This document shows, in pieces, positions 12,456 to 56,618 of a DNA stretch of 64,000 bases. Under the pieces are notes generated by a model. That model saw nothing but the letters and a program-made list of their open reading frames with translations, ran no database searches and was not told the origin of the DNA. The position numbers and the translations under genes are program-made. The stretch lies in the NCBI GenBank assembly GCA_951812585.1, contig OX638318.1, positions 2,354,380-2,418,379 on the forward strand, read 5' to 3'. How positions within the stretch are numbered: position 1 is the stretch's first letter; each line of letters starts with the position of its first letter. The DNA is from Rhodothermales bacterium. Its GTDB lineage: Bacteria; Bacteroidota; Rhodothermia; Rhodothermales; Bin80.

Positions 12456-12755
12456 TGCCCCGCTTGGTCTTCGCGGCCGCGAATAGTGGCGAATAGTGAA
12501 GGCACTGCGCAGCGGGCTGGATTGCTGATGCGCATGCCGGATGGCCGCTGCATGCGCGTTTGTCGCAGCTACGCCACCTCAACGTTGGAAGGTATCCAGA
12601 CAATAGCCGGCACCCTGGTGATTTATCCGGGTTAGGAGGGTGCCCGTGGCCTGCCTCACAAGCGACAAAACCTTCAATTCCGGGCTTTTGCAAGAGTTTT
12701 TTTTACAATTGGAGTATGCTACAAGCAATTGCATCTTCTAAGGGATGGATTTGAC
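12456..12755. other. 300-bp intergenic region before the secreted protease
   Basis: No gene is seen here. A perfect 8-bp inverted repeat (GGCACCCT at 12609-12616 and AGGGTGCC at 12637-12644) could form a hairpin, but no T-run follows it directly. A run of eight T at 12697-12704 and a TATGCT element at 12715-12720 may belong to the promoter of the protease gene. The 10-mer GCGAATAGTG occurs twice in tandem near 12479-12497. Confidence 0.4.
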
Positions 12756-15700
12756 ATGCGTATCCTGATCGTGTTGCTACTGCCTGTGGTTCTGGTTGTG
12801 CCCTTGGCTGGAGCGCAGGGCGATCCCGAGTATGCGTCTCATGTGGTCGTGGTACAGTTTGCGCCGGAGGTGGCCATGGCCAACAGAGCCAGCACGACCG
12901 GGCTGCGCGACTTTGACCAGAGGGCGTCGCAGTACGGCGTCCACCTGATTGCGCGCGTGTATCCGTTTCTGGATCATGTGGAGCCCACGCCGAAGACCAG
13001 GCAGAACCTGATGGCGCTCCGCCGCACGTATTATGTGCGCTATCACGCGAATGTGTCTCCGAAGGCGGTGGCCAGTAATCTGGCCACGGCGCCGGGCGTG
13101 GTGTATGCCGAGCCGGTGCTCGTGAATCGTACGCAGGCGTATTGGGAGCGTGTGCACCCCAATGATCCCATGTACAGCCAGCAGACGGAGCTACGTCAAT
13201 TGCGCTTGCCGGAGGCGTGGGATGAGGTCAAGAGCGAAGGCGGCGCACCGCGGGTCGTCATAGCCATCGTGGACGGTGGCGGCGAATGGCGGCATGAGGA
13301 TCTTCGCGCCAACGTTTGGACGAATCCGGGTGAGGTTGCCGACAACGGTGTCGATGACGACGGCAACGGGTTCATCGACGATGTGCACGGTGTCAACTTC
13401 GCCAACGGCGACGACACGGACAACGATCCGACGGGGCTGCCGGAGACGCCCTCGAATGCCCAACATGGCACGGCCGTTGCAGGTTCGGCCAGCGCGGTGA
13501 CCGACAACAGCGTGGGAGTAGCCGGTGCGGCCTGGAACGCGGATCTGATGCACATCAATGCTGGGTGCGAGCAGTTTGATGGAGGTATCTGCTATGGCTA
13601 CGAGGGCATTCTCTATGCGGCGGCCAATGGGGCAGATATCATCAATGCGAGCTGGGGAGGCCTGGCAGGACACGATGATTATATCAGGTTTCCGGACCAA
13701 ACGCTGAATCTGGCTACGGACATGGGAGCCCTTGTGGTAACCTCCGCCGGTAATTCTGCGCGCAGCAACGATCTGTTCCGATACTATCCGGCCCGTAGTC
13801 CGCGCGTGCTGTCGGTGGGTGCAACGGAGAAGGACACGCGCAGACGGGCGGGTTTCTCGAATTACGGAAAGCTGGTAAACGTTTTTGCTCCGGGCGAGGA
13901 CATCGTGACCACCGGATCAGACAACGGCTATATATCTGCCAGCGGGACGTCGTTTTCGTCGCCGTTGACGGCAGGCGTGGCGGCATTGGTGAAGACCCGG
14001 TTTCCCAACATGGGATCGGACGCGCTGCGGGAGCATGTTAGGCTTACGAGCGACAACATGGATGCGGAGAATCCGGACCTGGCCGGACGGCTCGGGCGGG
14101 GGTTTGTAAACGCGCTGGCGGCCCTCGACGCGCCGGCTGTACCCGCCGTACGCCTCAAGCGCTGGAGTTGGGTGGATGACGACGGTGACCGCCAGATTGC
14201 TTCGGGCGATGTGGTAACGGTAACAGCAACGTTAGTCAATCACCTGGCCGATGCCCGTCAACTCCGTGTGGGGCTTGTGGGGGCCGCACCGTATTCGTTC
14301 ATAGACTTGACCGCCGCGTCGGTCGATATTGGAAGCCTGGCCGGTGGCGACTCGGTCGAGGTCCGGCTGGAGTTTACGGTGGCTTCGGACGCGCCTGCTA
14401 ACCAGCGAGTGCGTTTCTTCACGCACATCCGTGAAGGGGCACACGAGGACGAGGCGGACCAGCTTTCACTTCGGGTCAACCGGTCGCTGGAGCCGGTCCA
14501 TCAAAGCTTGAGTGCATTATACGTGGCCACCGGCGGGGACGAATGGACGCGCAATGACCATTGGGACATCACGACGGTTCCGAGTGAGGAAGCACTGGCC
14601 TTGTGGTTTGGCGTTTTCCTCAATCAGGGATGGCTGTATCAGCTGGCATTGCCTAATAACAATCTTACGGGGTCGCTTCCGCCCGAACTCGGCAATCTCT
14701 CGGAACTGCAGGTGCTATGGCTGTCCGACAATTCGTTGACGGGGCCGATCCCTTCCGAACTCGGCAATCTCTCGGCTTTGCAAACGCTGTCTCTGTCCGA
14801 CAATTCGCTGACAGGGTCGATCCCTTCCGAACTCGGTAAGCTCTCGGAATTGCAAGTGCTGCGGCTGTCCGGCAATCTACTGACAGGGCCGATCCCGCCT
14901 GACCTCGACAATCTTTCGGAATTGCAAGTGCTGTATCTGTACAACAATTCGCTGACGGGGTCGATCCCTTCCGAACTCGGCAATCTCTCGGCTTTGCAAA
15001 CGCTGTCTCTGTCCCACAATTCGCTAACGGGGTCGATCCCTTCCGAACTCGGCAACCTCTCGGCTTTGCAGGGGCTGTGGCTGTACAACAATTCGCTAAC
15101 GGGGCCGATCCCTTCCGAACTTGGCAATCTCTCGGAATTGGAATGGCTGTGGCTGTCCGGCAATTCGCTGACGGGGCCGCTTCCGACCGAACTCGGCAAT
15201 CTCTCGGAATTGCGAGAGCTGCGGCTGTCCGGCAATCTACTGACAGGGCCGATCCCTTCCGAACTCGGCAATCTCTCGGAGTTGCGATGGTTATATCTGT
15301 CCGACAATTCGCTGACCGGCCCGATCCCTTCCGAAATCGGCAACCTCTTGGCTTTGCAAACGCTGTCTCTGTCCCGCAATTCGCTGACCGGGCCGATCCC
15401 TTCCGAAATCGGCAATCTTCAGCAATTGCAAGGGCTGTATCTGGACGGCAATTCGCTGACGGGGCCGCTTCCGACCGAAATCGGCAACCTCTCGGCTTTG
15501 CAGGACCTATTTCTGGGCGGCAATTCGCTAACGGGGCCGATCCCGCCTGGCCTCGGCAATCTCTCGGAATTGCAGGTGCTGCAGCTGTCCAACAATTCGC
15601 TGACGGGGCCGCTTCCGCCTGACCTCGGCAACCTCTCGGCTTTGCGGGGGCTGTGGCTGTCCGGCAATTCGTTGACGGGGCCGCTTCCGCCTGACCTCGG

Positions 15701-16763
15701 CAATCTTTCGCAACTGCGATGGTTGTCGCTGTTCCGCAATTCGCTAACGGGGCCGCTTCCGCCTGAAATAGGCAATCTCTCGGATTTGCAAGGGCTGTAT
15801 CTGTCCAACAATTCGCTAACGGGGCCGCTTCCGCTCGAACTCGGTAATCTCTCGGAATTGCTAGAGCTGTCGCTGTACGATAATGACATAACCGGGTCGA
15901 TCCCGGCCGAACTCGGCAATCTCTCGGAATTGCAGGTGCTATGGCTGTCCGACAATTCGCTGACGGGGTCGATCCCTTCCGAACTCGGCAATCTCTCGGC
16001 TTTGCGAGGGCTGAATCTGTCCGGCAATTCGCTGACGGGTGTGCTGCCGCGGAGTCTCATGCAGCTGGACAGTCTAAGCCATTTCTACTTTGGCGGCCAG
16101 GAACTGTGTGCACCGGCGGACAATGATTTCCAAGCGTGGCTGAGCAGCATCCCAAATACAGACGGGCCCACCTGCGCACCTTTGCAGCTTACAGGTACAA
16201 TTGCAAATCAAACCTTTCCCAGAGCACAGCCCATGGCGCCGCTGGTCTTGCCTGAAGCCTCGGGAGGTGTGTCGCCGATCAATTACACGCTGGCCCCCAC
16301 ACTGCCGACAGGCCTGAGCTTTGACTCGGCAACGCGCACGATCAGCGGTACGCCGACGGAAGTCACGCAAGGCCCCTTACCCTACACATACACGGCGACC
16401 GACGCGATCGGGTCCGCCGATAGTTTGCACTTCACTATTGAGGTGTTTTCACCAGTGGCCGCTGAGCACGAGACATTGCCGGAGTCGTTTGCTGTGCATG
16501 GCAATTACCCGAATCCCTTCCGTGCATGGACCCGCATCGTGTTCGATCTGCCTTGGCCGGCGCGCGTGACCGTTGAAGTCATGGACCTAACGGGCCGGCG
16601 CATGCTTGCTATAGCGCCGGTGGATCTGTCCGCTGGATGGGCGCATACCATTGCAATAAGCGGCCTTACCCTTTCTTCGGGACTCTACCTGTATCGCCTG
16701 ATGGCCGTGTCGCCCGAGAGCCATGCAACGTATCGGATGGGCCGCTTCGTGCACATTCGCTAA
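12756..16763 (+). CDS. Secreted S8 (subtilisin-like) protease with leucine-rich repeats and T9SS sorting domain
   Basis: A 1335-residue exported protein. Order: signal peptide (1-20), propeptide-like region (about 25-140), peptidase S8 domain with Asp173 (AIVDGGG), His237 (AQHGTAVAG) and Ser399 (SGTSFSSP), a CARDB-like beta domain (about 470-590), about 20 leucine-rich repeats of 24 residues (about 628-1105; consensus LSxLQxLxLSxNSLTGPIPSELGN), a putative Ig domain (about 1145-1230), and a type A T9SS sorting domain beginning GNYPNPF near 1249. The catalytic triad is intact. It probably acts at the cell surface or outside. ATG at 12756 was chosen because it gives a clean signal peptide with AGGGA-like sequence about 10 bases upstream. 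The LRR type is plant-like. Confidence 0.93.
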   Translation: MRILIVLLLPVVLVVPLAGAQGDPEYASHVVVVQFAPEVAMANRASTTGLRDFDQRASQYGVHLIARVYPFLDHVEPTPKTRQNLMALRRTYYVRYHANVSPKAVASNLATAPGVVYAEPVLVNRTQAYWERVHPNDPMYSQQTELRQLRLPEAWDEVKSEGGAPRVVIAIVDGGGEWRHEDLRANVWTNPGEVADNGVDDDGNGFIDDVHGVNFANGDDTDNDPTGLPETPSNAQHGTAVAGSASAVTDNSVGVAGAAWNADLMHINAGCEQFDGGICYGYEGILYAAANGADIINASWGGLAGHDDYIRFPDQTLNLATDMGALVVTSAGNSARSNDLFRYYPARSPRVLSVGATEKDTRRRAGFSNYGKLVNVFAPGEDIVTTGSDNGYISASGTSFSSPLTAGVAALVKTRFPNMGSDALREHVRLTSDNMDAENPDLAGRLGRGFVNALAALDAPAVPAVRLKRWSWVDDDGDRQIASGDVVTVTATLVNHLADARQLRVGLVGAAPYSFIDLTAASVDIGSLAGGDSVEVRLEFTVASDAPANQRVRFFTHIREGAHEDEADQLSLRVNRSLEPVHQSLSALYVATGGDEWTRNDHWDITTVPSEEALALWFGVFLNQGWLYQLALPNNNLTGSLPPELGNLSELQVLWLSDNSLTGPIPSELGNLSALQTLSLSDNSLTGSIPSELGKLSELQVLRLSGNLLTGPIPPDLDNLSELQVLYLYNNSLTGSIPSELGNLSALQTLSLSHNSLTGSIPSELGNLSALQGLWLYNNSLTGPIPSELGNLSELEWLWLSGNSLTGPLPTELGNLSELRELRLSGNLLTGPIPSELGNLSELRWLYLSDNSLTGPIPSEIGNLLALQTLSLSRNSLTGPIPSEIGNLQQLQGLYLDGNSLTGPLPTEIGNLSALQDLFLGGNSLTGPIPPGLGNLSELQVLQLSNNSLTGPLPPDLGNLSALRGLWLSGNSLTGPLPPDLGNLSQLRWLSLFRNSLTGPLPPEIGNLSDLQGLYLSNNSLTGPLPLELGNLSELLELSLYDNDITGSIPAELGNLSELQVLWLSDNSLTGSIPSELGNLSALRGLNLSGNSLTGVLPRSLMQLDSLSHFYFGGQELCAPADNDFQAWLSSIPNTDGPTCAPLQLTGTIANQTFPRAQPMAPLVLPEASGGVSPINYTLAPTLPTGLSFDSATRTISGTPTEVTQGPLPYTYTATDAIGSADSLHFTIEVFSPVAAEHETLPESFAVHGNYPNPFRAWTRIVFDLPWPARVTVEVMDLTGRRMLAIAPVDLSAGWAHTIAISGLTLSSGLYLYRLMAVSPESHATYRMGRFVHIR
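14636..16080 (+). repeat. 72-bp tandem repeat array encoding the leucine-rich repeats
   Basis: About 20 in-frame units of 72 bp, each coding one 24-residue LRR. Neighbouring units share long stretches such as AATTCGCTGACGGGGCCG and GGCAATCTCTCGGAATTGC. The repeats differ mainly at the positions that face out of the solenoid (residues after LxL and the x in IPxEL), whereas the scaffold codons are nearly identical in DNA. This points to recent expansion by unequal recombination. It also creates long antisense open frames that are not genes. Confidence 0.95.
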
Positions 16764-16987
16764 GGGAGACATCCGCGGCCCGCTGTAATCACGAATCCCC
16801 ATGGTCGGCCGTAATCTGGATTGATACGGCATTCGTCGGCCATGGCCCACTTTCATTCGACCGGATCAGAACGGGTGAAACGACATCTAAAATGTACCGA
16901 CGGGCGCAGGTGGTCCCGGTCTAGTCCTGCCCTTTAATCACAAATCTTTTTTGACAACCCTATGTGCCACAAAAAGGTGGGACACGC

Positions 16988-17010
16988 TTGCACCCTAAAT
17001 TAGGGTGCAA
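16988..17010. repeat. Near-perfect palindrome inside the left IS end
   Basis: Eleven-base arms TTGCACCCTAA and TTAGGGTGCAA flank a single A. It lies just inside the left terminal repeat and upstream of orfA. It could be a transposase or host-regulator binding site, or a hairpin that blocks read-in transcription of the transposase. Confidence 0.7.
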
Positions 17011-17072
17011 TGGCGGTCTTCTGGTCGTTATTGTTGTGGGCGGTCTTTTAGTCACGTAGATCGGCAAACGCC

Positions 17073-17477
17073 ATGGATTCAACGCTTCATGAAAGCCGTA
17101 CGGCACCACCACAGGTTCCATCCACGGAGGTCGTACCGCGGGCAAAGCGCTGCAGATTCACCTTGGCCTATAAGCAGCGCATCGTCCGCGAAGCGGGCGC
17201 TTGTCAGGTACCCGGAGAGATTGGCGCGCTGTTGCGCCGGGAAGGCCTTTACTCGTCTCAGCTGTCCAAGTGGCGCCAACAGCTCGACAGGCCGGAGGCT
17301 GGAACGCAGTCCGCCGACAAGGTGCACGCGCTGAGAAAGGAGTTGCGTACGGTGCGCAAGATGCTTGCGCGTACGCGTCATGAGCTCAAGCAGGCCCGGA
17401 CGGTCATCGAGATTCAAAAAAAAGTCTCTGGACTGCTTGGTCTCGAGATCCCCGACGAGCCCGGGCAACCAGGTTGA
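17073..17477 (+). CDS. IS3-family transposase OrfA (helix-turn-helix protein)
   Basis: A 134-residue protein. RFTLAYKQRIVREA, then GEIGALLRREGLYSSQLSKW, is the HTH_Tnp_1 DNA-binding motif of IS3-type OrfA proteins. A charged helical region (about 85-125; RKELRTVRKMLARTRHELKQ) resembles the leucine-zipper multimerisation part. It recognises the element ends. The A8 run near codon 117 may allow -1 frameshifting into OrfB to make the OrfAB transposase. Confidence 0.88.
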   Translation: MDSTLHESRTAPPQVPSTEVVPRAKRCRFTLAYKQRIVREAGACQVPGEIGALLRREGLYSSQLSKWRQQLDRPEAGTQSADKVHALRKELRTVRKMLARTRHELKQARTVIEIQKKVSGLLGLEIPDEPGQPG

Positions 17478-17479
17478 TT

Positions 17480-18460
17480 ATGCTGGAGGAACTCACCAAG
17501 GCCATGGACATGACGGCCGCGTGCCGCTACATGGAGATCTCCCGTAGTACCGGGCACCGATGATTGCATCCAGGGCCACGGAAGCCAAGGAAGCGGCAAA
17601 AGGGCCGGCTCGCCATCGGTGACGCGTGGCGCGCACAGATGCTGGCCCGGTTGTGTTCGGAGCGGTTCATGGATCTTCCGCCCCGGCAGATAGGGGCTAC
17701 GCTGCTGGATGAAGACCCCTATGGGTGTCACTGGCGCACGCTGTATCGTATCCTGAAAGAAAGCCGCGCGGTACGAGAGCGCCGTAACCAGCGGGTACAC
17801 CCGCCCTACACCAGGCCGGAGCGGGTGGCCACGGCCCCCAACCAGTTCTGGTCCATGGACATCACCACGCTGCGCGGTCCCCGAAAAGGGACCTCCTACA
17901 AGTGCTACGTGATCGTAGATATCTTCAGTCGGTACGTGGTGGGCTGGATGGTGGCCCCGTACGAAACGGCTGATCTGGCGGCCGATCTGGTCGTGACCAC
18001 CTGCGAGCGCCAAGGGGTCACAGCCGACCCACCCCCGGTCCACACGGACCGGGGCGCGCCCATGACCGCCCGGACCTACATCCAGTTGTTGGGGCAGCTG
18101 GGCGTCACGCGCTCCTATGCGCGACCGTACCAGTCGAACGATAACCCGTACTCGGAGGCCCTATTCCGTACCGCCCAGTATCCTCACCTGTACCCGAGGC
18201 GGTTCGGATCTCTGGAGGATGCCCAGCAATGGGCCCGATGGTTCTTCGCATGGTACAACGAGATGTTCTACCACTCTGGCCTTGGGCTCATGCATCCCCG
18301 GACTGTGCCCTACGGCCATACCGAAGCCGTCAGAGTTGCCCGTCAGCAAGTCATGGACGCGGCCTACGCACAACACCCGGAACGCTTCTTGGGTGGCAGA
18401 CCACGCACACCGATGCCGCCAAGAGCCGTATGGATTAACAAGCCCAAACACACTACCTAA
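17480..18460 (+). pseudogene. IS3-family transposase OrfB with in-frame TGA
   Basis: Starting at ATG 17480 the frame reads MLEELTKAMDMTAACRYMEI, a normal OrfB N-terminal helix-turn-helix, then meets TGA at 17561-17563 (after STGHR) and continues in the same frame to 18460. A single G-to-A change from TGG (Trp) would explain it. The remaining 298 residues contain the rve integrase core: catalytic D in FWSMDITT, D in VHTDRGAP, and E in NPYSEALF. The catalytic domain is intact but the N terminus is cut off. The element is therefore probably inactive unless the stop is read through or translation restarts. Confidence 0.8.
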
Positions 18461-18541
18461 CACGCTCAGCCGCAAAAAATGCCCAATATAACGTGGAACT
18501 TAGCCTACGCTAAAGTGTATCATTTCTTTTGGCACATACCG

Positions 18542-19672
18542 ATGTACCGTTCCGTTTTTGCCTTCTTGGCAGGTGCTTGTTGCGTTCTTTGCGGGTACGC
18601 CCAGGGCGGTATCCACCCCAGTGTCGGTGGTGTACAGGAGTCCCAGGAATCCGTGGAGTTGGTTGAATTGTGGCTAATGGGAGACTCGGAAGATGATGAC
18701 GTGCTTTTCAGGTACATTCAGGATGTGGCGGTAGATTCCAGAAACAGAGTGTATGCAGCGGACTATGGGCACAAGGCACTCTCCGTATTCTCGGATACAG
18801 GTGCTTTGCTCCTTGAGATTGGGCGTGCCGGTCAAGGCCCGGGAGAATTTGAAAGTGTAAATGATGTGTTTGTGGGCGCAGCAGACACGATATTTGTTTG
18901 GGATTTCAACCAACGCCGGGTGTCAACTTTTGCGCCCGATGGTTACGGCATTGTCGAAACGGTTGCCGTGCAGGGCGGACTGAACACAATTCCACACTAT
19001 CTCATTGGCGTGACGGCCGACGCATTCGTGTTTGGATACATATATGGGCTCAAGGACGGCGAAGACAATCAGGCCACACGAGGTGTGGATGTGCATCTAG
19101 TAGACCGGAAGAGCGGAGTAATACTCGATCATCAAGCACTGGCAAGGTTTCCTGATATGTCACAACTTGTAGATGAACGAAAGGACGGATCCATCAGCGT
19201 GACGAGAATGCCGTTTCGCGGCAAACCACAACTTGATGTGAGCCTGAAGGGACATATATACTTGGCCCACGGTGAGGCAAGCACGGTTGCGGTTGCATCT
19301 GCGGAAGGAGTTGTGCTGGATACTATCAAATGGTCATTCGATCCAGTGCCGGTGACATCCTCTGACTACGATGACGCGGTCAAAGGGCGATCCAAAAGAT
19401 ATCGAAGCTTGGTGCGGGATCGGTTACCCAAGACCAAGCCCGCGTTCCAACAGCTCGTGGTAGATGATCAGGAGCGTCTGTGGCTACAACAAAACGCTCC
19501 ATATGGTGCATCCGTGACCACGTGTGTGATCCTCAAATCAGATGGAACCCATGTGGACACTGTTGATATTCCCGTAAATCTCCACCTTTGGGCCGTCCGC
19601 AACGATAGAGCCTATGGCGTTCTGACGGCGGAGGATGGAAAGCAGATGCTGGTCGCTTACGCGATCAAGTAG
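18542..19672 (+). CDS. Secreted 6-bladed beta-propeller protein
   Basis: A 376-residue exported protein. From ATG at 18542 there is a signal sequence (SVFAFLAGACCVLCGYAQ); a lipobox is possible but not ideal. Propeller blades are visible as repeated D-x-x-N/G-x-x-Y/F-V units such as IQDVAVDSRNRVYAADYG, then SVFSDTGALLLEIGRAGQGPGEF, which is the hallmark of the 6-bladed/NHL-like lipoproteins common in Bacteroidota and relatives. A DsbA-like gene follows 44 bp later. The IS3 element ends 5 bp upstream of the ATG, so the native leader and promoter have been separated from it. An in-frame ATG at 18479 within the IS would add 21 residues and bury the signal peptide. Confidence 0.8.
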   Translation: MYRSVFAFLAGACCVLCGYAQGGIHPSVGGVQESQESVELVELWLMGDSEDDDVLFRYIQDVAVDSRNRVYAADYGHKALSVFSDTGALLLEIGRAGQGPGEFESVNDVFVGAADTIFVWDFNQRRVSTFAPDGYGIVETVAVQGGLNTIPHYLIGVTADAFVFGYIYGLKDGEDNQATRGVDVHLVDRKSGVILDHQALARFPDMSQLVDERKDGSISVTRMPFRGKPQLDVSLKGHIYLAHGEASTVAVASAEGVVLDTIKWSFDPVPVTSSDYDDAVKGRSKRYRSLVRDRLPKTKPAFQQLVVDDQERLWLQQNAPYGASVTTCVILKSDGTHVDTVDIPVNLHLWAVRNDRAYGVLTAEDGKQMLVAYAIK

Positions 19673-19716
19673 CCCCCCTCTCTCTCTCTTTTGTTTTAGC
19701 GTATTGCGGGCCTCGC

Positions 19717-20397
19717 ATGCAGGTACTTAGGATCACACTCACCACTCTGCTGGTGATCTGCGCGGTGATCGTAACCGCCTTGGTCGCGCGGCGCGAGCTT
19801 ATCGTGGCTAGAACCCCAGATCAGCCGCTTGCCCCAGACTTGATCCTGTCTGATTCCTTGTGGCAGGTCATATCGGAATACCAGACGGCTTCAGGACCAC
19901 GGTCAGCTCCGGTAAAATTGGTCGAGTTCTACGACTACGAGTGTCCGTTTTGCGGCGACTTCCAACCTGTGCTGGACACCATTCGTGCCAAGTACCCGGA
20001 TGAGGTAACAGTGATTTACCGGCACTACCCGCTGTCCTACCATACAGGCGCTTATGACGCGGCCATAGCCGCTGAATGTGCGGAAAAGCAGGGTGCGTTC
20101 AAGGCACTGCACAACCTTCTTTTTGCGCACCAGACACAGTTGTCTGGTAGCGTGAATTGGGGATCATTGGCACGCAAAGCAGGAATTCCAGATGCGATGC
20201 GTTTTCGCAGTTGTGTAGCCGAAAAGCTACCAACCCCCAAGATTGATGCCGACACTATGGCAGCCCACTTACTGGGGGTAGAGGGTATTCCGACGCTAGT
20301 TATAAACGGTGGCTCGAAGGTCGCGCGCATAGCAGTAGAAAAGGCGAATGTTGGAGCAGAAGCGTACGAATCACACCAATTCCTGGCAACTTGGTGA
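19717..20397 (+). CDS. DsbA-family thiol:disulfide oxidoreductase, membrane-anchored
   Basis: A 226-residue protein with an N-terminal membrane anchor (about residues 5-23) and a thioredoxin/DsbA domain. The active site is YECPFCGDF (CPFC, near residue 76), preceded by KLVEFYDYE; the cis-proline loop is GVEGIPTLVI near 190. These are Thioredoxin_4/DsbA features. It would form or reshuffle disulfides outside the cytoplasmic membrane. It is 44 bp after the propeller gene, across a CT-rich spacer (19676-19691), and the pairing is repeated at 54.8-56.6 kb with a different thioredoxin-like protein. Confidence 0.85.
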   Translation: MQVLRITLTTLLVICAVIVTALVARRELIVARTPDQPLAPDLILSDSLWQVISEYQTASGPRSAPVKLVEFYDYECPFCGDFQPVLDTIRAKYPDEVTVIYRHYPLSYHTGAYDAAIAAECAEKQGAFKALHNLLFAHQTQLSGSVNWGSLARKAGIPDAMRFRSCVAEKLPTPKIDADTMAAHLLGVEGIPTLVINGGSKVARIAVEKANVGAEAYESHQFLATW

Positions 20398-54178: not shown

Positions 54179-54474
54179 GTCTCTTTGCCACTCAGTAGCG
54201 ATCCGCGCCCGTACACCCCCTCGGGGTCTTGGCCTACACCACGATTGGATCCGACAATCTCAAACTGCTCTGGATTGCATTTGTCCAAGAAGGTAACAGG
54301 GACTCCCATTACGCCATCCCAGTCTGTCGGAATGTTCTTCACTTGACTAACCTCGATAGCGTCGTAATTATCGTACGTTGGGTACTCCTTCGGCGAATAC
54401 TGCTTATAGAGGATCAGCTCCTCTTGGCGCTTGGCATGATCAAGGTTGGTGAACCATGTGACATTTCGGAACTT
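54097..54474 (-). pseudogene. C-terminal fragment of an EcoRI-family adenine methyltransferase
   Basis: The minus-strand frame contains VKFRNVTWFTNLDHAKRQEE, YDNYDAIEVSQVKNIPTDWD, GVMGVPVTFLDKCNPEQFEIVG and GRGSLLSGKETWKRLLI, the conserved C-terminal part of EcoRI-like adenine-specific methyltransferases. The N-terminal two thirds with the catalytic motif are missing; the homology breaks at about 54475, exactly where the peptide gene begins on the other strand. The DUF262 gene starts within its last codons, so the two were an operon. Confidence 0.75.
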
Positions 54475-54478
54475 CACA

Positions 54479-54799
54479 ATGAACACAGTAATGAACTTCC
54501 TAACGCGCTCACTCGTCATAGTAACACTCATCATGGGTGTGTACGTGATGGGCGCAGTTGTGAGATCCGTGATAAGCCCAAACGATGTACAGGCCACAAC
54601 AACGGACTGCGATGCTAACTGGAAATGCCATGGTGATCAGCAATGCGGCAGTTGGCCCAGCGATCCAACTCTGTGCGGTGTTTGTGCCTCTTTTCCCGGA
54701 CCACTCACCGATCAGGGTTGCATGTATGTACCTCAGTACGGTGGTAGCCACTTGAGATGTCGAGAGTATAATTGCACTGACGACATGCAACCAACATAA
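54479..54799 (+). CDS. Small secreted cysteine-rich peptide precursor
   Basis: A 106-residue precursor from ATG at 54479 (MNTVMNFLTRSLVIVTLIMG). A single hydrophobic leader segment (about 9-28) is followed by SPNDVQATTTDCD, which recalls the NVEA-type leader ends of Bacteroidota secreted peptides (by eye only). The remaining part has eight cysteines (DCDANWKC, QQCGSW, TLCGVC, QGC, LRC, YNC), enough for four disulfides. It is rich in Trp, Tyr, Gly and Pro. It starts the operon and stops 5 bp before the propeller lipoprotein gene. No homologue is recognised. Confidence 0.65.
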   Translation: MNTVMNFLTRSLVIVTLIMGVYVMGAVVRSVISPNDVQATTTDCDANWKCHGDQQCGSWPSDPTLCGVCASFPGPLTDQGCMYVPQYGGSHLRCREYNCTDDMQPT

Positions 54800-54804
54800 C
54801 ATAG

Positions 54805-56007
54805 ATGCCAAAGGCTTCTACATTTTGTGCCTTGGTGCTGCTGCTCGCAGCCTGCCAGAACGACGGTGCAGGCCCAGGCAGTAATCCATTGCCCTCTTCC
54901 AACGCTGACTTTCAACGCGCTGAAGGGCATCCACACCCCGACAGCATCCCTGCCGTTACGGATCCGAGGTTCATCATCAAGGATGTACCTCGGGACACCC
55001 TGTTCTGGATCGGGAATGCTCTCCGAGGCGGTCGGACAATCGGCAAAGCGGAAGGAGACTTGGACGAGATGCTGGGCACCATCCGGGATGTGGCCGTCAG
55101 CGACAGTGTCGTGTACTATGCGGATGGAAACTACAGCCATGTCCGTGCCTACGATTTCGAGGGCCACCTCGTTGACATATTGGGAGGCCCCGGAGAAGGA
55201 CCAGGTGAGATGGCATGGGTGATGCAGGTCTCCGTTACGGGTTCAGGCGACAGTGTGTATGTGGTGGTCGGATCCGGTCAGTATAAGATTTCGGTGTTCA
55301 GAAGGCGCCGGGATGGCACTCATGAATTTCGGAATTCGTTTTCATCTACCGTGGATTTCTTTAATGGTGCCATGTGCGCAATGCATGGGCACGTATACAC
55401 CACGGGATACAAGGAAGACCTCAGCGGTGTGATTCACAAACACACGCTGGAAGGGGCCTACGTCTCATCGTTTGGCGCCCGCTACAACCACGACGCACGA
55501 ATAGTGCGCTCAACTATCGCAGAATGGGCCATCTTGGAGTGTAACGCGACGCACCGCACACTCCTCCACCTGCAGAAACAAGCTCCCATAGCGACGGCGT
55601 TCACGGAGTCGGGTGCCGTGATCTGGCGAATCAAGTTTTCTGATGCCCGGATAGCTTTGGCAATAGCGCACTATTGGAAAAACCGGCCATACAGGGTGTC
55701 AATTGGGCAGGGGGTACCATGGATCGGCGAATCGCGTGCCCCAGACATTGTGGGAGGGGCAAGCGGAGACACGTTCTGGCTTACACGCCTTGAACTGCTG
55801 TCCGAAGAACGGGATCGCTGGGTAGGCCACCTCTACAAGGTCGATGTGCTGTCGGGGCGAGGCGAATATGTGGGGCCACGCCCGTTCAATCATACCCTGC
55901 AAGCGGGAATGAGAATCCAGGCCATAGCGCAAGAGCGGCTATTCGTCAGCCGGATGACACCGTTTCCCCAGCTGGGAATACATCGCATGCCGAGCGAGAT
56001 ACGGTGA
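54805..56007 (+). CDS. 6-bladed beta-propeller lipoprotein
   Basis: A 400-residue lipoprotein. MPKASTFCALVLLLAACQND contains the lipobox LLAAC (cysteine at 17). Blades are seen as GTIRDVAVSDSVVYYADGNY, then VRAYDFEGHLVDILGGPGEGPGEM, the same LxGxGxGPGE(F/M) turn as in the propeller at 18.5 kb. Later blades include GHVYTTGYKEDLSG and DTFWLTRLEL. It would sit in the outer membrane and bind a ligand or partner. It is 5 bp after the peptide gene, and its stop overlaps the next start as GTGA. Confidence 0.82.
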   Translation: MPKASTFCALVLLLAACQNDGAGPGSNPLPSSNADFQRAEGHPHPDSIPAVTDPRFIIKDVPRDTLFWIGNALRGGRTIGKAEGDLDEMLGTIRDVAVSDSVVYYADGNYSHVRAYDFEGHLVDILGGPGEGPGEMAWVMQVSVTGSGDSVYVVVGSGQYKISVFRRRRDGTHEFRNSFSSTVDFFNGAMCAMHGHVYTTGYKEDLSGVIHKHTLEGAYVSSFGARYNHDARIVRSTIAEWAILECNATHRTLLHLQKQAPIATAFTESGAVIWRIKFSDARIALAIAHYWKNRPYRVSIGQGVPWIGESRAPDIVGGASGDTFWLTRLELLSEERDRWVGHLYKVDVLSGRGEYVGPRPFNHTLQAGMRIQAIAQERLFVSRMTPFPQLGIHRMPSEIR

Positions 56008-56618
56008 CTAATAGGAAGGCGGGCATCCATCGGACAGCCAGCAAGCTGGCAGCACTTGTGCTGCTGTTATCCACGATATTTGTATTGTCTGCGTTGGACG
56101 TGCTCCCCTTCCCGGCCATCACGATCCAATGGCCGAGTGTGCACACCGAGGACTCGGCGCAATACGTACCATCATTCGAAAAGCCGCTGGAACGCGAATT
56201 GGTACTGGTGTACTTTGGTTCAGCGTCTTGTGTTTGGTGTAGCAACCCCGATCTGCCAGGCATAATCGACAGCGTGAAGAGTGCCGTACGTGCGCACGCA
56301 GCAGCACATGGCATGTCATTCACGGCACTGGGGGTTGCCCTGGACTGGGATGCAAAAGAAGGCATGGCACATTTGGACAAGATCGGTCGCTTTGATGATA
56401 TTGCCACGGGACGCAGCATATACGGGTTGGGAGCACGTACGTACAAGCACCTGCTGGATGGAACGCCAAAGGTGTCGGTGCTGAAGCGCACGCCGTCGAC
56501 ACTGAGTGACGGAGCCCCAACGCACTTTGAAGAAAAGGAGCTGATTCGTCAGACCAGCGTGTACGGCATCGCCACATGGGTCCGGCGGGGTGCTCCTATA
56601 CCTGCGGACACTTACTAG
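56004..56618 (+). CDS. Thioredoxin-like membrane-anchored protein
   Basis: A 204-residue protein with an N-terminal membrane anchor (LAALVLLLSTIFVLSALDVL) and a thioredoxin-like domain. LVLVYFGSASCVWCSNPDLPG has an active-site CVWC, and ARTYKHLLDGTPKVSVLKR has the TP cis-proline turn. It is not of the DsbA subfamily of the 19.7-kb gene, but it has the same location in its operon. The start GTG (56004) overlaps the propeller stop. The terminal TAG contains the TA at which the IS630 element inserted. Confidence 0.78.
   Translation: MTNRKAGIHRTASKLAALVLLLSTIFVLSALDVLPFPAITIQWPSVHTEDSAQYVPSFEKPLERELVLVYFGSASCVWCSNPDLPGIIDSVKSAVRAHAAAHGMSFTALGVALDWDAKEGMAHLDKIGRFDDIATGRSIYGLGARTYKHLLDGTPKVSVLKRTPSTLSDGAPTHFEEKELIRQTSVYGIATWVRRGAPIPADTY

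Follow-up and report, generated by a model that had tools for sequence, protein, structure and literature searches.

A recurrent gene module of a secreted Cys-rich peptide, a DsbA-like oxidoreductase and a beta-propeller, and its apparently decaying copy beside an IS3-like element in a Rhodothermales genome

The window analyzed here, a stretch of 64,000 nucleotides from a Rhodothermales bacterium, carries at 18.5 kb a propeller gene and a DsbA-like oxidoreductase gene directly downstream of an insertion sequence (IS). The features of this locus, and those of a second locus at 54.5 kb with which it was compared, are given in Table 1.

Table 1. Features of the 18.5-kb locus and of the comparison locus at 54.5 kb (window positions).
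Feature	Position	Strand	Remarks
3' end of subtilase/LRR gene and downstream flank	16701-16957	+	Recurs at other places in the genome; IS left end fused straight onto the flank
IS3-like element	~16958-18541	+	Ends TATGTGCC / GGCACATA; occupies the site of the peptide gene and upstream region of relatives
IS orfA, HTH_Tnp_1	17073-17477	+	
IS orfB, DDE transposase (rve)	17564-18460	+	
Secreted six-bladed NHL/DUF5128-type beta-propeller, 376 aa	18542-19672	+	Signal peptide by eye; ATG immediately 3' of the IS end
Membrane-anchored DsbA-like oxidoreductase (Thioredoxin_4), 226 aa as read	19717-20397	+	Native to about residue 196
CPFC active site, C76-C79	19942-19953	+	Both Cys invariant in 10/10 aligned members
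Dispersed-repeat fragment, 77 bp	20304-20380	+	Stands in place of the native DsbA-like C-terminus
54.5-kb trio (comparison): Cys-rich peptide gene	54446-54799	+	
54.5-kb trio (comparison): propeller	54805-56007	+	Different clade
54.5-kb trio (comparison): anchored CVWC oxidoreductase	56004-56618	+	No similarity to the 19.7-kb enzyme

The 18.5-kb propeller scored 45.2 bits against Pfam DUF5128 (cut-off 22.9) and 21.9 bits against the NHL repeat (cut-off 20). Its predicted structure was an NHL-type propeller (pLDDT 81.6), and NHL propellers were the top PDB neighbors of the model by Foldseek and VIA-align (Z about 21); the top NHL match in VIA-align had a Z of 21.7 over 260 residues with an rmsd of 3.4, followed by the Bacteroides DUF4221 structure 3s9j (Z 20.2). 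The 19.7-kb gene reached 73.4 bits against Thioredoxin_4/DsbA (cut-off 23.2) and encoded an N-terminal hydrophobic stretch; the cis-Pro P192 was as invariant as the two active-site cysteines among the ten aligned members. Reading frames, Pfam scores and the CPFC site together bear out an earlier note on this DNA, which had proposed a propeller and thiol-oxidoreductase gene pair. From about residue 196 (about position 20304), the tail of the DsbA-like protein differed from all nine other aligned members; the native C-terminal sequence beyond the cis-Pro loop is missing. Searches of PHROGs gave no match for three proteins and one weak match for the DsbA-like protein (E 0.009).

The same note had placed an IS3 element at the expected site of a peptide gene, and an IS3-like transposase pair does lie directly upstream of the propeller. 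OrfB scored 147.3 bits against the NCBIfam IS3 transposase, below the cut-off of 160, with the orfA/orfB layout and inverted ends present. Further copies of the element occurred in the genome at 713541-715124 (97%), 3086470-3087994 (98%) and, in part, at 2156041 (92%), and comparison of the near-identical copies showed that the right end adjoins the propeller ATG at 18542. The reading frame is open from 18479, and its first 21 codons are assigned to the IS because these copies show the right end reaching that ATG. The propeller frame is intact, and the sequence upstream of it now belongs to the IS; a pattern search of the right end of the element for an outward-facing sigma-70-type promoter, weakly informative in itself, found none. 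On the left, the gene at 12729-16763 is subtilase-like with a long run of leucine-rich repeats, and its end recurs with the downstream flank at several places in the genome. An interpretation of the locus flanks as attC-like or as a cassette was dropped, since the sequence on the left belongs to the tail region of this LRR gene and that on the right is a transposase-like repeat fragment. The same IS right end was also seen just 5' of another propeller start (L016 8280-9419; G000:C1:340387-340446, G000 being the window's genome), where it seems to provide the start codon, and just 5' of an ATG in L030 (2156041 region).

The trio at 54.5 kb was as the earlier note described it, and both propellers are indeed followed by a membrane-anchored CxxC enzyme, the two enzymes belonging to different subfamilies with no similarity beyond the CxxC. 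The blade turn said to be shared is present, although it reads GxxGxGPGE and not GxGxGPGE; it occurred in 108 of 135 propellers and, being common to the family, provides no link between the two loci. The note's claim of paralogy did not stand. The two propellers gave one weak alignment (76 aa, E = 0.29) and were no more alike than random family members, 89% of 595 own-genome pairs among 35 propellers scoring at least as high; the 54.8-kb propeller reached 10.3 bits against DUF5128, below the cut-off of 22.9. For the peptide families of the two trio types, homology was not demonstrable (hhalign probability 2.6%). Close paralogy of the two operons was rejected on the propeller, enzyme and peptide comparisons, and the loci are, as judged from their sequences, neighborhoods alike in kind rather than close paralogs.

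Other such sets were seen in the same genome. The 54.5-kb trio has a second copy at G000:C1:332806-336319 (L016 1807-5320), with a propeller 97% identical, a peptide gene split by a transposase gene, and a propeller frame that continues into part of the oxidoreductase. Another peptide-propeller-oxidoreductase-like set lies near 2.545 Mb (L027 3903-6045), and tandem copies of such sets near 1.994 Mb (L053 5998-9359); the third genes of these two regions were called thioredoxin-like by eye only, because they had no Pfam match.

The peptide gene was sought in 59 genomes, namely G000 and 58 others. A DsbA-like search gave 24 matches in 18 of the 59, of which 13 were of the compact, anchored kind as judged by lengths and N-termini; in one search, only matches at E 1e-20 or stronger were collected, covering all but a few of those listed. 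The small Cys-rich frame that the earlier note expected beside the propeller in related genomes was present, a secreted Cys-rich small gene adjoining the propeller or the enzyme at 9 of the 13 compact-DsbA loci. The peptide was found at G014:C114, at G014:C132 (with the enzyme gene in opposite orientation), at G007:C84 and at G005:C3 (with a stop-interrupted DsbA-like gene); G014 matches the Rhodothermales MAG jk18xAbins.42 and G007 the Bacteroidota MAG RHO1_bin_46. At G013:C4, the peptide has one internal stop and the DsbA-like gene is a fragment, as it is in G002, and in G026 the peptide is present and the propeller split by an insertion. G032 and G042, of the same genus, each had two tandem Cys-rich genes with a DsbA-like gene and no propeller, and G050 had a peptide-propeller-DsbA trio. 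At the four peptide-less loci, the window has the IS, the genome's own copy at 2151868 has an IS transposase frame directly 5', that of G008 meets a contig end with transposase-like sequence, and that of G002 is decayed. Relatives without the IS do carry the small gene, which supports the idea of a peptide missing from the window. None of the three longer DsbA matches read (L196-L198, out of 11) had a propeller or peptide.

The peptides were about 75-90 aa long, with a hydrophobic leader; their mature parts mostly contained 6-8 Cys, and a CC..CC..C pattern was kept in an alignment of four of them (two from G014, one each from G007 and G005). The peptide profile gave one chance-level match against solved structures (E 0.54). 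As side observations, propeller-less tandem pairs of Cys-rich secreted genes lie directly 5' of a DsbA-like gene in two genomes from a different family within the order (L193 1452-2080; L194 3760-4388), and the G050 trio is followed by a second small Cys-rich gene and two propellers (L195 5621-8523).

A natural deletion was found between G012 and G014, which have the locus in common (96% and 95% DNA identity). An exact 576-bp gap in G012 corresponds to the piece holding the peptide gene, homology stops 2 bases past the propeller stop, and the DsbA-like gene is missing, a state most simply explained by loss of the peptide and DsbA-like genes. The propeller of G012 is 93% identical to that of G014 with a dN/dS of 0.31 (29 non-synonymous and 27 synonymous changes; binomial p = 4e-5 versus neutrality), compared with 0.11 and 0.04 for two neighboring genes. 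The G012 propeller is constrained, more loosely than its neighbors, and this constraint may predate the loss.

Of 128 propellers whose upstream sequence was long enough for an automated count, 12 were preceded by a secreted Cys-rich small ORF, versus 8 of 375 control genes from the same loci (p = 9e-4); one of the eight control positives (L016) is probably part of a disrupted peptide copy. Within 2 kb, 8 of the 12 peptide-bearing propellers had an oxidoreductase of one type or the other, versus 16 of the 123 peptide-less ones (p = 1e-4), the label in this 135-propeller count resting on proximity alone; five of the 16 adjoin the enzyme of another propeller (L119:4525, L186:3792, L186:105, L188:4220, and L022:5898), and the upstream filter misses ORFs longer than 170 aa (L025) and stop-containing peptides (L115). 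By these filters, 107 of the 135 propellers had neither partner, so that the propeller must often act without the peptide.

On a tree with hand-set labels, the peptide was present in 17 of 23 rows with an oxidoreductase versus 4 of 118 without, the labels having been set after locus reading and favoring the closest-inspected loci, with L110 left out where the contig ends upstream. In 11 independent tree pairs, the peptide followed the oxidoreductase in 8.2 on average and the opposite occurred in none (median p 0.008). Among the propellers, the peptide and the oxidoreductase come and go together. In the tree of 142 propellers, those paired with a CVWC enzyme formed one group (2 changes) and the DsbA-paired ones were scattered (10 changes, of which supported branches force at least 8; shuffled mean 11.7). 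This pattern fits the parallel assembly suggested in the earlier note, and an old trio with repeated losses fits it equally. The group of the window propeller includes the peptide-bearing G014:C114.

Beyond the order, a contig collection was scanned with the DsbA alignment; the best 80 loci were kept and all scanned with profiles, and five Gemmatimonadota loci were read gene by gene. A propeller was found by profile at 6 of these best 80 loci. Three of the five Gemmatimonadota loci (L229, L235, and L240) carried the complete trio in the consecutive order peptide, DsbA-like enzyme, propeller; L228 had tandem DsbA-like frames and a peptide but no propeller, and L274 had a DsbA-like gene and propeller with no peptide seen. 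The trio recurs in Rhodothermales and Gemmatimonadota in differing gene orders.

Taken together, a conserved module of a small secreted Cys-rich peptide, a membrane-tethered DsbA-like oxidoreductase and a secreted six-bladed propeller is well supported. An anchored, dedicated oxidoreductase encoded next to a secreted Cys-rich peptide suggests that disulfides are formed in this peptide, and the best explanation, which we regard as fairly probable, is a dedicated oxidative-folding module in which the propeller is a partner of the peptide. The peptide would be exported through its hydrophobic leader, the anchored DsbA-like enzyme would make its disulfides in the periplasm, and the propeller would bind the peptide once folded, serving as its partner, carrier or protector. 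The propeller-less loci with peptide and DsbA-like genes in G032 and G042 count against this reading.

Alternatively, the peptide could be a disulfide-stabilized antibacterial toxin that the DsbA-like enzyme folds, with the propeller as a periplasmic immunity or retention protein and the orphan propellers as immunity genes outlasting a lost toxin. The many paralogous propellers without a peptide, the great diversity of both peptides and propellers, and the constrained propeller kept by G012 after losing its peptide and DsbA-like genes are in line with such a toxin/immunity pair. We nevertheless consider it unlikely, since no transporter or killing domain was noticed beside the genes in an unsystematic look, Cys-rich genes occur with a DsbA-like gene and no propeller in G032 and G042, and the peptides read matched no family over cut-off in Pfam or NCBIfam nor, for the two searched there, in PHROGs.

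For the window itself, no peptide of the compact-DsbA-linked family was detected by profile in the genome (best E = 0.62), and the role of the module in this organism rests therefore on its relatives. Because this peptide is absent and the tail of the DsbA-like protein derives from a dispersed repeat, the locus looks like a decaying remnant of the three-gene module: the IS, with deletion or rearrangement between repeats, would have taken out the peptide gene and promoter region, and the enzyme, its dedicated substrate gone, would now be decaying beside a propeller whose frame is still intact. The absence of the peptide from the genome, together with the fusion of the IS left end directly to the flank of the LRR gene, would also be expected had the pair never possessed a peptide and the IS inserted into plain intergenic DNA; this seems rather improbable given the peptide-bearing member of the propeller's own group and the IS, contig end or decay seen at every peptide-less compact-DsbA locus. 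That the propeller acts alone as an envelope sensor or scaffold, with peptide and oxidoreductase as chance neighbors in an IS-rich genome, accords with the many solitary propellers and the propeller-less loci of G032 and G042, yet is very doubtful in view of the recurrence of the trio in two phyla with differing gene orders, the two unrelated oxidoreductase types that accompany Cys-rich peptides, and the covariation of peptide and oxidoreductase on the tree.

If the oxidative-folding module is real, an anchored oxidoreductase next to a propeller would be a marker for unannotated disulfide-rich peptides across two phyla, and the role of a large uncharacterized propeller family (35 proteins compared in one 3.2-Mb genome) would become directly testable. 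A bolder and tentative extension, possible though not favored, is a class of bacterial secreted peptides, rich in disulfides and hitherto undescribed, that would resemble bacteriocins or signals, every peptide having an anchored DsbA-like folding enzyme and a propeller of its own, the latter as receptor or immunity protein. Assembly with unrelated oxidoreductases would have occurred repeatedly, with many duplications within each Rhodothermales genome; the class would be common to Gemmatimonadota, and the orphan propellers would mark past peptides.

Several known systems resemble parts of the module. The NVEALA peptides of Bacteroides (PF14055) are often found near six-bladed propellers and are likewise small, secreted, Cys-containing peptides of Bacteroidota; membership in this family was rejected, as none of the 59 genomes had a match over cut-off and G000 had no match whatever. 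The oxidoreductase shares the Thioredoxin_4/DsbA fold, CxxC and cis-Pro with BdbD, ScsC and DsbA, names that occur among its nearest solved sequences, and differs in its N-terminal anchor, in its recurrent neighborhood of Cys-rich peptide and propeller and, in the window copy, in the loss of the native C-terminus. The DUF5128 and DUF4221 propellers of Bacteroidota (PDB 4raa and 3s9j) have their fold and sequence signature in common with the window propeller; they are titled only as putative exported protein or DUF member, with no partner. The methylamine dehydrogenase (mau) cluster encodes the Cys-rich small subunit MauA, the propeller MauB and the anchored thioredoxin-like MauD, and two Trp residues of MauA give rise to its quinone cofactor. 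Here the propeller has six blades of the NHL/DUF5128 type, the peptide family is another, and the peptide sequences show no sign of a tryptophylquinone cofactor, the alignment of four of them containing no invariant Trp. The Pfam light- and heavy-chain families of mau were absent at E up to 1 from the window propellers, oxidoreductases and peptide and from eight peptides of relatives. A search of open-licence papers found no description of the trio. The parts of the module are known folds, and the recurrent trio with two oxidoreductase types appears to be new; what it shares with the mau cluster is the combination of a disulfide-rich small secreted protein, a beta-propeller and a dedicated anchored thiol oxidoreductase in one cluster.
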